Source of the DNA: a virus
DNA length: 34,676 bases
IMG/VR virus record: IMGVR_UViG_3300030101_004712
Location: 1 to 34,676 of that record
Strand: one strand, 5' to 3'
The notes beneath the pieces are model-generated. The model was not told the origin of the DNA. It made no database searches and was given only the letters and a program-made list of their open reading frames with translations. Positions within the stretch are counted from its first letter, which is position 1. Each line of letters opens with the position of its first letter. Positions 1 through 34,676 of this stretch are shown here, one piece after another. Made by a program: the position numbers and the translations under genes.

Positions 1-58
1 AAGCACATGACCGTCGTTTAGTGGGGGGGTAGGGGCTACAGGCTCGAAAACGTCGCAT
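1..58. other. Left contig end, non-coding
   Basis: Bases 1-12 (AAGCACATGACC) match the right end. A G-run (23-29) and inverted copies of right-end blocks (GGGGCTAC at 32-39, CGAAAACGT at 45-53) follow. It lies just beyond the methyltransferase stop, where a transcription end would be expected, but I see no clear hairpin terminator. Confidence 0.5.
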
Positions 59-3675: not shown

Positions 3676-4577
3676 CAGCCGAACATTCCCACCTGGTCAG
3701 ACATCGACTCGGACTTCAGATTACGAACTGCTTGCCGGTAGTAGGACGGCTTGAGCTCGACCCCAATGAACCGGCGGCCAGCTCGGAGCGCTCCGACGCC
3801 TTCCGAACCGACTCCACCGAACGGACTCAGGACCACGTCACCGTCATTGCTCCACAGTCGGACACAGCGCTGGATCAAGTCGAGCGACAGTGGGCACATG
3901 TGCCGTTCGTCCCGGTCGTCCCGCGCGGCCTTCACGTTCAGTACGTCCGTATGTCGGACATCCATCCACACTGGAGACGCCCATTGTTGCCACCGCTCCA
4001 GCGGGAACGTCTCGCGGGTGTGACCCACTGGCCGAACATCGTCCACTTCCCTGTCTTCGTCCGCCCACCGTCGGAATAGTAGAACGTATTCGGGCATTCC
4101 GACTCGGCTGAAGCTCGAGTCCTTCCGGAGCTGCTTGTACAACAGTCCGTGGTTCTTCGTCTTCCGCTGTTCTTCGACGGGATCTTTCCATACCGTGACC
4201 CGGCAATGGTACTGAAATCCGGCCGCTTCCATCTCCCGAGTCAGGTCGCCGGGGAGATCGTGCATTCCCGCGCGTCCATGCGCGCCCTTGTATCGGATCG
4301 TGTCCTTGCAATGGACCGCACACAGGCGACCCGGACGGAGCGTCCGGTACAGTTCCTTCGCCAAAAATCGGTAGTGCTGCATGAACTCGGCTTCCGAGTC
4401 ACAGTTCCCCATGTCCCGAGTCGAGTCCGAGTACAGGTACACGTTCGCGAACGGAGGACTGAAGACTTGAAAGTCCACGGACTTGTCCGGCAGCTGTCGG
4501 ACTACCTCCACACAGTCCCCGTTGTACATGGCCCAGTCGTCTGTGGTAGTGGCGTCGAGTGCTTGAATCTGTGTCAT
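3675..4577 (-). CDS. DNA N4-cytosine/N6-adenine methyltransferase (beta class)
   Basis: This 300-residue amino-methyltransferase has its catalytic motif SPPF at residues 40-43, just after the MYNGDCVEVVRQLPDKSVD segment typical of the family. The cofactor motif comes late, as SPFGGVGS at 251-258 followed by FIGVELKPSYY. Motif IV before motif I is the beta-class order. SPPF rather than DPPY slightly favours N4-cytosine, but N6-adenine cannot be excluded. It follows the SNF2-like helicase by 14 bases and overlaps the primase by one base, placing it in the replication operon. The middle region (about 90-230) should hold target recognition. Probable role: masking host restriction sites. Confidence 0.87.
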   Translation of the reverse strand: MTQIQALDATTTDDWAMYNGDCVEVVRQLPDKSVDFQVFSPPFANVYLYSDSTRDMGNCDSEAEFMQHYRFLAKELYRTLRPGRLCAVHCKDTIRYKGAHGRAGMHDLPGDLTREMEAAGFQYHCRVTVWKDPVEEQRKTKNHGLLYKQLRKDSSFSRVGMPEYVLLFRRWADEDREVDDVRPVGHTRETFPLERWQQWASPVWMDVRHTDVLNVKAARDDRDERHMCPLSLDLIQRCVRLWSNDGDVVLSPFGGVGSEGVGALRAGRRFIGVELKPSYYRQAVRNLKSESMSDQVGMFG

Positions 4578-4591
4578 CGTCTGTCCCGTTG

Positions 4592-6013
4592 TCAGTCTGT
4601 GTGTGTGTGGATCCAGCTCGGGAGCCGGCTTGTGTGTGTCGCGCGGTAGCCGATGGCGTACGCTCGCTTGTGCTGTGACCTCCTGGCCGCTTGGAACATC
4701 TGCACTTTCATCGCCTCATGATCTTGGCGCTTCCGCTCCAGCGTCGCCCATACGGACTGTTCAGTCGCCGCCAGGACAATGTCCGCCGTCACCGGGAGCG
4801 CTTGTCCGAAGCGCCAGAAGCGGCGAATGGCCTGATACAGCATTTCGTAGCTGTAGCTGGGACCGTTGAAGATGGTCCGTGCGCAGTGTTGCCAGTTCAT
4901 GCCGAACCCGGCAATCTTCGGTTTTGTCACCAGGACTCGGAAGTCGCCACGGGAAAAGCCGATTAGCCGTTCCCGCTTCACCTTCGAAGTCATCCGTCCG
5001 GCCACTTCGACAGCTTCGGTAATCCGAGCCATGACCGCGTCCGCGTCGTAGTTGGTCTCGCACCACACGACAATCGGACCCGTCACGTCCGCGACCAGCT
5101 CCGCAACCAAGTCGGCCCGAGCTTGACACGTGCGACGCCGTTCCCGGTGGAGACCAGTCGCTGACAGCGTGGGAGCGCGGAAGAGCTCCGTCCGGGTCTG
5201 GTCCACAATGTCCACCCGGACTGGCTGAAGTCGCACGTGGAGCGGTGGCAACACGTACCCGTCGTCGGAGTAGTCGCCGATGTCACTCGGACGACCGACA
5301 CACCTTGCCCAGCTCGTGACCCAGTCCCAGAACGGCCGGACAGCGTGGCCCTTCAACCGGTAGCTTCCGGCTTCTTTCTGGTCCGAGATAAACCAGCGCG
5401 CGATCATCTGGTGGGAAGTCATCACACCCAGGAACTGAGCGTGGTTCCCCAACTCCAAGTAGTCGTTCGGCGCTGGTGTCGCGGTACATGCGAGCCGGTA
5501 CGGGGTGTCGGCGAAGGCCTCCAACAGATAGCGCTTCATCGCTCCCATATACGACTTTAGAATGCTGGACTCGTCGAGCACCAGACCGGCGAACAGCTCC
5601 GCGGGGAACTTCCGCGCGCGGTCGTAGTTCGTGACAAGTAGCGGCTTGTCTGAGTCTCCCGGTTCCTGTACCTGTTCAATGATGTCGCCGAGTCCGATTG
5701 ACCGGGCTTCGTCGATCGTCTGAGCTCCAACAGCCAACGGCGCCAGGATGAGGACTCGGCCGCCGGTGTGCTCATGGACCTGGCGCGCCCATTCCAGCTG
5801 TTGCCTCGTCTTCCCGAGTCCGGTGTCTTCGAAGAGCGCGGCCCGTCCGAGCTTGCATGCCCACGCGACACAGTCCCGCTGCCACGGCCACAGGTGATCG
5901 CCTTCAATGACCGCGTCGAAGCCATCCGGCGCAACAGTCGGTGTCTTCAGACTCAGGAAGTCCAGATATGGACGCACTTCTCCGCCCCCGCTTCCGCGGG
6001 TGTCGTTTGTCAT
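4592..6013 (-). CDS. SNF2-like DEAD-box helicase
   Basis: This 473-residue superfamily 2 ATPase carries Walker A EDTGLGKT (62-69), LDESS as motif II (146-150) and TATPAPND (178-184). In the C-terminal lobe AIRRFWRFGQ is the motif VI region typical of phage SNF2-like helicases. It probably translocates on double-stranded DNA during replication or recombination. Its ATG has a strong ribosome site, AAGGAG six bases upstream, and it is first behind the candidate promoter at 6134-6162. Phages often pair such a helicase with an adjacent methyltransferase, as seen here. The last 30 residues are basic and not conserved. Confidence 0.87.
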   Translation of the reverse strand: MTNDTRGSGGGEVRPYLDFLSLKTPTVAPDGFDAVIEGDHLWPWQRDCVAWACKLGRAALFEDTGLGKTRQQLEWARQVHEHTGGRVLILAPLAVGAQTIDEARSIGLGDIIEQVQEPGDSDKPLLVTNYDRARKFPAELFAGLVLDESSILKSYMGAMKRYLLEAFADTPYRLACTATPAPNDYLELGNHAQFLGVMTSHQMIARWFISDQKEAGSYRLKGHAVRPFWDWVTSWARCVGRPSDIGDYSDDGYVLPPLHVRLQPVRVDIVDQTRTELFRAPTLSATGLHRERRRTCQARADLVAELVADVTGPIVVWCETNYDADAVMARITEAVEVAGRMTSKVKRERLIGFSRGDFRVLVTKPKIAGFGMNWQHCARTIFNGPSYSYEMLYQAIRRFWRFGQALPVTADIVLAATEQSVWATLERKRQDHEAMKVQMFQAARRSQHKRAYAIGYRATHTSRLPSWIHTHTD

Positions 6014-10263: not shown

Positions 10264-10478
10264 GTCTGTCCATTCCCCTGGAAAAGGTCCATCTGTAGCG
10301 GTCCCGTGTCCACCGGTACTGCCCCGTCAACTACTACTCGGGCGACATGCCCGCGTCCCCTGAGTTCTGCCGCTACAGCTTCCGCGGTCGCGACATCGAA
10401 GCGAGATCCAGCGCCGTAAAAGCGCCGTCCCCACCAGCGGCGATGTCCTCGCCAGTCGACCAGAACGCGCGCGCTCAT
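10260..10478 (-). CDS. Small basic hypothetical protein
   Basis: This 72-residue protein starts MSARVLVDWRGHRRWWGRRF and is not recognised. The N-terminus is Arg/Trp-rich and the middle (FDVATAEAVAAELRGRGHVARVVVDG) reads as helix then strand, with an acidic end LQMDLFQG that is slightly like a clamp-binding peptide (QxxLF-type). The start at 10478 overlaps the RuvC-like stop and its own stop overlaps the next ATG. If the QMDLF segment really is a beta-clamp motif, the protein could recruit the host sliding clamp, but this is weak. Confidence 0.55.
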   Translation of the reverse strand: MSARVLVDWRGHRRWWGRRFYGAGSRFDVATAEAVAAELRGRGHVARVVVDGAVPVDTGPLQMDLFQGNGQT

Positions 10479-10963
10479 CGTTGCGACTCGAGCCACGCGA
10501 GCACAGCTCCGAGCGCTTGCCAAGCGTGCGACGACACACCGAAGAGCGGACCCGGACTCGCCTTCCGTCCGACAGCTGGCGGTCCACCTGGAGTCTGATG
10601 GTCGGCAACGCATGCCCGCCGGACTCGACTGTCCGCGGCACCCGTACCGGACATAACACCGAGCTCGCGAAGTACTTGTCGACGGGTAAGCTCATGCGTC
10701 GGGATGCCAGCCAGCTGGAAGTTCGCAACCATGCGTCCGCCTTCCCAGGCCGTATCGAGCATATGACCCACCTTCCCAGTACCGAGTCCGCCCATGGCCG
10801 CGGGGCGTTCGATCACGGCACGTTCCACTTCGTGGGCTTCAGACTCGTCCATAATGGACATCCAGTCCGCGGACTTGTCCGACCACAGCACACGGCGTGC
10901 AACACTGTCATAGATGACAGCGCCATGGGTCAAAGGACCAGGATCGACTCCGACGATCACCAT
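10475..10963 (-). CDS. RuvC-like Holliday junction resolvase
   Basis: This 162-residue protein has the RNase H fold start MVIVGVDPGPLTHGAVIYD (Asp 7), then AVIERP with Glu 52 and a Gly-rich segment with conserved Thr and Gly, and ends SSHAWQALGAVLAWLES. The first two acidic residues and His 146 correspond to RuvC-type catalytic positions. In cellular RuvC the His is followed three residues later by Asp, but here that place is Gln 149, so one metal ligand may be replaced or supplied elsewhere. It would cut branched recombination and replication intermediates before packaging. It overlaps the repressor gene by seven bases. Confidence 0.78.
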   Translation of the reverse strand: MVIVGVDPGPLTHGAVIYDSVARRVLWSDKSADWMSIMDESEAHEVERAVIERPAAMGGLGTGKVGHMLDTAWEGGRMVANFQLAGIPTHELTRRQVLRELGVMSGTGAADSRVRRACVADHQTPGGPPAVGRKASPGPLFGVSSHAWQALGAVLAWLESQR

Positions 10964-11193
10964 GGAATGTTCCGCAGTTCAGCGAGCGCCCCGATTAGCG
11001 CGTCCTTCTCATCCGGCGTTTCCGCCAAGTAGTACAGGAGAGCGGAGAATGTCCCGGTGGACATGACATCGGCCCCGCCGTTTTCGTATCGGGAGACCTG
11101 GCGTTCCGATATGCCAGCGAGCTTGGCCAGTTCCGATTGAGAAAATCCACGGCGACGACGAAGAACGGCCAACTGTTCTGAAAGGGTGTTCAT
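10957..11193 (-). CDS. Cro/CI-type transcription regulator (XRE family)
   Basis: This 78-residue protein is one helix-turn-helix domain of the XRE family: RRRGFSQSELAKLAGISERQVSRYENG covers helices 1 to 4, followed by a short helical tail. It lacks the C-terminal protease or dimerisation domain of large CI repressors, so it resembles Cro. The ATG at 11193 has a strong ribosome site (AGGAGGT). It is the first gene of the leftward early operon and faces the rightward operon across a 113-base divergent control region containing a large inverted repeat, its probable binding site. Confidence 0.88.
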   Translation of the reverse strand: MNTLSEQLAVLRRRRGFSQSELAKLAGISERQVSRYENGGADVMSTGTFSALLYYLAETPDEKDALIGALAELRNIPW

Positions 11194-11213
11194 TCGCGAT
11201 ACCTCCTGGCGAA

Positions 11214-11242
11214 ATGCTACCGGCTCGGAACCAGACGCGCAA
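11214..11242 (-). promoter_or_regulatory. Candidate leftward early promoter
   Basis: On the minus strand -35 TTGCGC (11242-11237) and -10 TAGCAT (11219-11214) are 17 bases apart, 21 bases before the regulator ATG. The -35 match is poor (three of six to consensus), but the layout is mirrored exactly by the rightward promoter and shares CCGGTAG with it. Confidence 0.45.
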
Positions 11243-11282
11243 GTCAGAATGTGTCCTTGCGCGTCCGGAATAAGTCCGGTAG
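11217..11282. promoter_or_regulatory. Mirrored operator between divergent operons
   Basis: Two 27-base arms (11217-11243 and 11256-11282) form an imperfect inverted repeat around a 12-base centre. Each arm reads CTTGCGCGTC, then C or T, GG, seven variable bases and CCGGTAG. The ten inner and seven outer bases are identical in both arms. This probably binds the XRE regulator and controls both early promoters at once. Confidence 0.65.
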
Positions 11283-11285
11283 TGT
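11257..11285 (+). promoter_or_regulatory. Candidate rightward promoter
   Basis: TTGCGC at 11257-11262 and TAGTGT at 11280-11285 are separated by 17 bases, about 21 bases before the ATG at 11307. Both hexamers are weak, so activity may need an activator; the mirrored partner promoter supports it. Confidence 0.4.
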
Positions 11286-11306
11286 CTGAAAAAACCAGGA
11301 GCTGGC

Positions 11307-11975
11307 ATGGATGCAAATGACTTGATCGGACTTGCGCAAAAAAGCCGATACCTTCGAGCGGTGGACGTGGACGAGAGCTTCAAAGTGACGATCGCCAACG
11401 TCACAGTCGAGACGATGAAAGCGAAGGGCGAAGAGGAGAAGGAACGCGGCGTGGTCTGGTTCGAAGAAGACGAACGCGGCCTGGTGGTTAATGTGAGTCT
11501 CGGACAGATCCTTCGGGCCATGTTCGGCATTCATCTGGCGGACTGGCACGGTAAGCGACTCGAGCTCTACAACGACACCAGCGTCCGCGGGAAGTCCGGA
11601 AAGGCTGTCGGTGGCATACGGATCAAGTCCAGTCCGGACATCGACACTGACGTGGTGGTGCTTGCTGGTAAGTCGCCGTTTTCTCGTGGCACTGAGTACA
11701 CGGTGAAGGCTGCTTCGTCGGCGAGCTCGGGACGTCGGAACGACGAAGACACGCAATCCATCTCTAAGGGTCTCTTGGACTCCGCGCTCCGTAAGGTGGG
11801 ACTGTCCATCTCCGACTTCGACGCGTGGGCCATGTCCGTCGACAAGCCACAGTTCCACCAGCTCCACGCAGCGGGGCGCGCGGCGGCCGCGAAGTGGGTC
11901 AGCGGCAACGGTCACAAAGTGATCGGCGACTTCATCGCCTGCCAGCACGAAGACTCCGACCCGATGGCGGTCTGA
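11307..11975 (+). CDS. Probable OB-fold type early phage protein
   Basis: This 222-residue protein is the first rightward gene. Its first half (FKVTIANVTVETM, then VVWFEEDERGLVVN, then WHGKRLELYNDTSVRGKSGKAVGGIRI) has the strand pattern and the conserved W-x-GK-x-x-x-LY...GIR signature of a widespread family of phage early proteins with an OB-like fold. Members often sit near recombination genes. The second half is specific to this phage. The ribosome site is AGGAG, five bases before the ATG. A role in binding single-stranded DNA is plausible from the fold but unproven. Confidence 0.6.
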   Translation: MDANDLIGLAQKSRYLRAVDVDESFKVTIANVTVETMKAKGEEEKERGVVWFEEDERGLVVNVSLGQILRAMFGIHLADWHGKRLELYNDTSVRGKSGKAVGGIRIKSSPDIDTDVVVLAGKSPFSRGTEYTVKAASSASSGRRNDEDTQSISKGLLDSALRKVGLSISDFDAWAMSVDKPQFHQLHAAGRAAAAKWVSGNGHKVIGDFIACQHEDSDPMAV

Positions 11976-13040: not shown

Positions 13041-13117
13041 CCGCTCGCGAGCACATTGAAGCGGCCGCCGGACTGGCTGTCATCGTGTCCATCTGGTTCC
13101 TGGTGATGTCGTCATGA
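13037..13117 (+). CDS. Tiny single-pass membrane peptide
   Basis: This open frame encodes 26 residues: a short polar start (MTAREHIEAA) and one hydrophobic segment (GLAVIVSIWFLVM). Its ATG overlaps the previous stop and its TGA overlaps the next ATG, so it fills the gap exactly, as expected of a real gene in this genome. It is probably an inner-membrane peptide of unknown role. Confidence 0.5.
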   Translation: MTAREHIEAAAGLAVIVSIWFLVMSS

Positions 13118-13377
13118 GCTTACAACCACAGGACCAGACACGTGGCCAGGCCATGTTTGCCGCGGCTTGTTGGCGTCTCGGACTGACTCCCGGAGCGCCC
13201 GGAACACAGAAAGCCGTCCTGGCTGAATGCTCGGACATCTGCACGCAAGCCCAGCTCAGCGAGTGGTCCACCGGCAAGCGGGAACCATCCGACCGGAAGC
13301 TGGCCGAGCTCGGCAAGCGCTTCGGCTTCGAGCTCGTGACCTACTGGGTTGCCAGCTCACGTTGGCTGAAAGACTGA
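13114..13377 (+). CDS. Helix-turn-helix protein, Cro-like
   Basis: This 87-residue protein has a central segment CTQAQLSEWSTGKREPSDRKLAELGKRFGF that fits a Cro/CI-type helix-turn-helix (recognition helix around AQLSEWSTG). It starts by overlapping the tiny membrane peptide gene and is the last rightward gene. It may be a second regulator, perhaps controlling early-to-late switching or the late genes that begin just beyond it in the opposite direction. Confidence 0.6.
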   Translation: MSLQPQDQTRGQAMFAAACWRLGLTPGAPGTQKAVLAECSDICTQAQLSEWSTGKREPSDRKLAELGKRFGFELVTYWVASSRWLKD

Positions 13378-34589: not shown

Positions 34590-34676
34590 GTTTTCGCGTG
34601 CTACGCGCTCAGGTAGCCCCAGCGTAGCACATGCTACGGACGGGAGCGAGCGCGTAACGGGAGAAGCACATGACCA
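34559..34676. other. Junction region at the contig end, candidate packaging or control site
   Basis: No gene is seen in these 118 bases or in bases 1-58 at the other end. The stretch holds an inverted repeat CGTAGCA-CA-TGCTACG (34623-34638), an additional TGCTACG at 34599-34605, and ACGTTTTCG (34588-34596) with GTAGCCCC (34613-34620). Inverted copies of the last two lie at 45-53 and 32-39. The terminal AAGCACATGACC at 34664-34675 repeats bases 1-12. Confidence 0.5.

Follow-up and report, generated by a model that had tools for sequence, protein, structure and literature searches.

The 113-bp intergenic region at positions 11194-11306 of the window (i.e. the whole stretch of 34,676 nucleotides analysed from IMG/VR virus record IMGVR_UViG_3300030101_004712) has the appearance, by sequence, of a real, conserved and functional-looking divergent switch of an already known design. 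The region probably serves as an early switch in which both sides are repressed by the switch's own Cro-like regulator of 78 aa. On the sequence level, the switch consists of mirrored arms, promoter-like elements and an adjacent helix-turn-helix (HTH) gene, together with their conservation in related phages. Direct reading of the window placed the limits of the region exactly, between the start codon of the regulator gene (minus strand, CAT at 11191-11193) and the ATG at 11307.

Two 27-base arms in inverted orientation around 12 bases, as described in the initial annotation, were present in this region (Table 1). Nineteen of the 27 bases match between the arms, and the reported identity of the outer seven and inner 10 bases was borne out by direct reading. 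The block between these identical segments was found to be 10 bases long, with eight differing and two matching (i.e. CC), and not the seven varying bases counted earlier. A score of 19/27 was obtained in 0 of 2000 shuffles of the 113 bp with the same dinucleotide content (p about 0.0005), and the inner 10-base arms gave a p of 0.0025 against shuffles of the same region. Examination of the full 34.7 kb for 27-base arms with gaps of 0-40 bp detected 19 matches only at the arms and at least 18 matches at 32 places. The arm score alone is unexceptional genome-wide and exceptional within the 113-bp region, so that the case rests on location and conservation.

Both arms contain elements of a predicted outward-facing promoter with a 17-bp spacer. 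The claim that the arms hold both -35 and both -10 elements stands for the -35 hexamers; the -10 hexamers have only their first three bases (TAG) within the arms and their last three just outside. A pattern scan for TTGCGC-17-TANNNT produced two perfect matches in the window, both at the arms. A sigma-70 promoter scan of the window listed no promoter at 11194-11306, as TTGCGC and TAGTGT/TAGCAT depart from the consensus by more than the threshold of the scan allows. The -35 centres are 20 bp apart. Transcript starts are predicted at about 11207 leftwards and 11292 rightwards; as the arms lie upstream of both, an RNA hairpin was set aside as an explanation. The distance from the -10 element to the ATG is about 20-21 bp in three of the four promoters of the window and the distant relative described below, and 29 bp in the fourth, placing the predicted starts close upstream of the ribosome sites.

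Table 1. Features of the divergent region and its flanking genes (positions are those of the window).
Feature	Position	Strand	Sequence and remarks
Left arm	11217-11243	-	CTACCGGCTCGGAACCAGACGCGCAAG; -35 and spacer of leftward promoter; unchanged in close relative
12-bp centre	11244-11255	.	TCAGAATGTGTC; length kept in 3/3 phages, sequence varies
Right arm	11256-11282	+	CTTGCGCGTCCGGAATAAGTCCGGTAG; -35 and spacer of rightward promoter; 1 change in close relative
Predicted leftward promoter	11214-11242	-	TTGCGC-17-TAGCAT; -35 11242-11237, -10 11219-11214; leads to regulator
Predicted rightward promoter	11257-11285	+	TTGCGC-17-TAGTGT; -35 11257-11262, -10 11280-11285; leads to 222-aa gene
Candidate operator, type A	11218-11236	-	GTCTGGTTCCGAGCCGGTA; in leftward spacer; exact GTCYGR-N7-CCGGTA match; resembles rightward arm of distant relative
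Candidate operator, type B	11263-11281	+	GTCCGGAATAAGTCCGGTA; in rightward spacer; resembles leftward arm of distant relative
78-aa Cro/CI-type HTH regulator (HTH_31)	10957-11193	-	First gene of leftward replication operon
222-aa protein, no assigned function	11307-11975	+	First gene of short rightward operon; phrog_11517 E 6e-10

Conservation was examined in a close relative (IMGVR_UViG_3300037963_005570, i.e. L002/L005/L006/L009), most of which aligns with the window at about 90% identity, and in a distant relative (CALJGV010000039.1, a MAG contig, i.e. L011). Between the window and the close relative, the arms and -10 hexamers differ at one of 60 positions as against 5/12 in the 12-bp centre (Fisher p 0.0003 for arms versus centre), 6/41 in the leaders and 36/113 at the fourfold-degenerate sites of two neighbouring genes. 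The only arm position that is changed in the close relative is midway along the type B spacer. This check against related phages, which had been proposed in the initial annotation, indicates that selection acts on the arms and not on the gap, i.e. the arms are strongly constrained and the centre is not, as judged from these substitutions. The homologous place in the distant relative, which is syntenic with the window on both sides of the region, carries TTGCAC-17-TACGGT leftwards and TTGCGT-17-TAGGGT rightwards, again around a centre of 12 bp. Each arm of this relative has 17 of the 19 bases that are common to both window arms, while its inverted repeat taken alone is at chance level for 10-base arms (p 0.67) and marginal for 27-base arms (p 0.05). 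Outward promoter-like elements beside an HTH gene were thus observed in the window and likewise in both relatives, and the previously proposed divergent promoter pair with mirrored geometry, adjacent to a small HTH regulator, is predicted in all three phages with the gap fixed at 12 bp. A shorter inverted repeat (CTCCTGG/CCAGGAG) was noted at the ribosome-site regions of the divergent genes of the window. In the distant relative, these regions carry a perfect 11-bp inverted repeat (TTCTCACCTCT at 5881-5891 and AGAGGTGAGAA at 5991-6001), which extends the mirror outwards.

Further relatives were sought in several sequence collections. A DNA search of annotated phages with 1.1 kb around the site gave no match, and the 222-aa protein had one remote phage match (31%) and none in plasmids. 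Viral contigs were searched with the regulator, the 222-aa protein, the helicase and the terminase and by alignments, which yielded only one relative with the region, and a search with the arm-pair pattern recovered only the known relative. Two helicase relatives (L007 and L008) end before the region. Genomes from the same phylum and order as the L011 assembly contained only remote partial homologues, without arms. L019 was set aside, its CI-like pair being unrelated and having another operator.

Promoter spacer sequence is not normally read by sigma-70. As sigma-70 leaves the conserved spacer bases GTCYGR and CCGG unexplained, these bases are likely operators. The candidate operators are of two types, with patterns of GTCTGRTTCCGR-N-CCGG for type A and GTCCGG-N5-TCCGG, with a variable N5, for type B. 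Palindromic symmetry is poor in the type A spacer, whereas type B has an inner palindrome of CCGGA-N5-TCCGG at 11265-11279. A consensus of the four arms (CTTGCRYGTCYGR-N7-CCGGTA-N3-T) occurs as exactly two mirrored copies in each phage as compared to about 2e-6 copies expected by chance in the window, a figure to be read with the knowledge that the consensus was fitted after the arms of the distant relative had been seen and that the three phages represent two independent lineages. No further copies of the site were found in the window beyond the two arms and hence nothing shows the regulator acting elsewhere. The motif CCGGW-N5-WCCGG alone was found 14 times against 8.7 expected; it is not clearly enriched and is consequently unusable for finding further sites. 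A third candidate site at 11325-11339 (GACTTGCGCAA) is altered in the close relative and was dropped.

The regulator matched PF13560 with an E of 4.8e-13 and 49.6 bits (cut-off of 27) over residues 4-66, placing it in the HTH_31 family by a profile that is above cut-off across most of the protein. Its predicted structure has five helices (pLDDT 79). Homologues of the regulator lie beside the same arms in the close (95% identical) and distant (59% identical) relatives, and the helix-turn-helix residues SERQVSRYE are invariant in 3/3 phages, which fits an apparently unchanged operator. The regulator gene is followed leftwards on the same strand by genes for a RuvC-like resolvase, helicases, an exonuclease, methyltransferases and a VapE-like protein. 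The gene directly after the regulator is RuvC-like in the window (phrog_1770; 10475-10963, minus strand) and has a RusA counterpart in the distant relative (PF05866; 5080-5646, minus strand), i.e. one type of Holliday-junction resolvase is swapped for another at the same place. On the other side, the 222-aa protein has homologues in the close (90% identical) and distant (54% identical) relatives, and in MW202476 the gene of a remote homologue is flanked by those for exonuclease VIII and SSB. The rightward operon consists of the 222-aa gene and small genes to about 13.4 kb, beyond which structural genes are read leftwards from the right end. One product of the rightward operon, an 87-aa protein (13114-13377, plus strand), exhibited weak HTH matches (PF01381 E 0.06; phrog_4 E 0.007) and is possibly a second regulator.

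A 12-bp direct repeat, AAGCACATGACC, is located at both ends of the window (1-12 and 34664-34675), and the close relative begins and ends at the same sequence. This repeat suggests either natural, cos-like genome ends or a short closing overlap, and the genome is probably complete. No match to PF00589 or PF00239 (i.e. integrase/recombinase) was detected in the window. This absence is meaningful because the genome is probably complete, and a role in lambda-type lysogeny is therefore unsupported; plasmid-like or other forms of lysogeny may occur. Near the right end, at 34598-34640, a mirrored pair (GTGCTACGC and GCGTAGCAC) and a palindrome (CGTAGCA-CA-TGCTACG) lie upstream of the terminase genes, which are read leftwards. 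The close relative has retained the palindrome, and this segment is a candidate cos/packaging or late-promoter site.

In the proposed mechanism, the region would control the early transcription of a tailed-phage genome in both directions, with two back-to-back sigma-70-like promoters, one per arm, driving the replication operon leftwards and the short operon rightwards. The regulator would bind an operator in each 17-bp spacer (GTCYGR-N7-CCGG) and would probably also contact the mirrored -35 flanks. Accumulating regulator would then shut its own promoter and the opposite one, a negative feedback that ends early transcription in both directions. With its length fixed at 12 bp, the centre would determine how the two bound proteins are phased around the helix, and these could perhaps touch across it. 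Promoter activity, binding, repression and co-operation across the centre are all features that we infer. For the conserved spacer bases, a separate operator in each promoter appears to be no worse an explanation than one long site. Binding as one symmetric dimer or tetramer, as envisaged in the initial annotation, is possible but is not preferred to two dimers bound separately.

The arms could alternatively be alike through use of the same RNA polymerase (i.e. the host enzyme, which might carry a sigma factor from the phage or an alternative one), with the regulator acting elsewhere or in a different manner. The most conserved blocks do coincide with the -35 element and the start of the -10 element, but RNA polymerase needs neither the spacer bases GTCYGR/CCGG nor a fixed distance of 12 bp. 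A phage-wide class of promoters should also recur, and no other promoter of this type was present in the window, making this explanation rather unlikely. Activation, either of both promoters or of one promoter with repression of the other as for the controller (C) proteins of restriction-modification systems, would be consistent with the fold and sequence neighbours of the regulator, which include C.BclI, C.AhdI and C.Esp1396I, and with -35 elements that are poor for sigma-70. An activator is, however, expected upstream of the -35 element, and at both promoters that position is taken up only by the 12-bp centre, which is not conserved, and by the arm of the other promoter. In each promoter, the conserved blocks instead overlap the stretch from -35 to -10, and a protein bound there usually blocks polymerase. 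Activation was accordingly judged to be very improbable.

A further alternative is a bistable switch, as in TP901-1 or lambda, in which the 78-aa and 87-aa proteins compete for the type A and B sites and establish two states. The presence of two kinds of arm and the HTH matches of the 87-aa protein point in this direction. These matches are weak, however, with the Pfam match being below cut-off, and neither a tyrosine integrase nor a serine recombinase is present in the window, which appears to run from one natural genome end to the other. The weak HTH protein of the distant relative (4232-4525) belongs, moreover, to the leftward operon, on the opposite strand. A switch of two competing repressors was considered unlikely, and repression of both promoters by the 78-aa regulator is the preferred reading.

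Back-to-back divergent promoters in a small intergenic region, together with an HTH regulator, are a well-known arrangement. In the OR/Cro region of lambda, divergent early promoters are both repressed by a small Cro-like HTH protein that is made from one of the transcripts, and three 17-bp operators are arranged in a row with unequal promoters. The region described here resembles that of lambda in that its predicted early promoters diverge and a small Cro-like HTH protein is expected to repress both, but differs in having two mirrored candidate sites, one per promoter; the comparison is loose, as neither an integrase nor a clear second repressor was detected. In the tetR/tetA pair, regulator and target gene are read divergently, two operators overlap with promoter elements and the regulator represses its own gene. 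The same layout is seen here with predicted operators and autorepression, whereas TetR belongs to a separate, ligand-induced family and both protein and DNA sequences are unrelated. HipB antitoxin and restriction-modification controller proteins bind operators near their own promoters. These small Cro/CI-type HTH regulators are similar in size and fold to the 78-aa protein, but their matches to it are weak (sequence E of 0.0006-0.007; structure E above 0.004) and no toxin or restriction gene partner was seen here. Near-symmetric back-to-back divergent phage promoters have already been described for TP901-1 (PMC7250872). The CI/MOR switch of this phage (i.e. of the lactococcal P335 phages) has a central OR between the promoters, additional OL and OD sites and two regulators, and functions in lysogeny. 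In contrast, the present region has conserved blocks inside each promoter, one clear adjacent regulator and no integrase that was found. A conserved central operator of the TP901-1 type was not observed, the centre being the least conserved part (5/12 differ at an overall identity of ~90%).

The arm types themselves may have changed places between lineages. Exchanged pairing of the window arms with those of the distant relative produced 23/27 and 21/27 matches as compared to 18/27 and 18/27 for direct pairing. All six informative columns within the arm favoured exchange (p 0.0027 by within-column permutation), although neighbouring columns are perhaps not independent and one pair of lineages cannot separate inversion from convergence. 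The centres of the close and distant relatives share 7/12 bases directly and 0/12 when inverted; the centre is, on this comparison, without sign of inversion but evolves too fast to weigh heavily. It is conceivable, though doubtful, that the switch was turned round in the lineage of these phages, with types A and B exchanged between the regulator and 222-aa sides and with the genes, leaders and 12-bp spacing unmoved.

The region would represent a compact early switch with a single regulator and with a predicted operator motif common to four promoters, in a group of uncultured phages for which no integration genes were detected. The apparent exchange of types A and B seems to be the least ordinary part of the result. 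If true, strand switching between inverted repeats would permit the exchange of mirrored arms, the symmetry itself would be a substrate for rewiring which operon shuts first, and inverted-repeat promoters would let a switch change polarity without moving genes.
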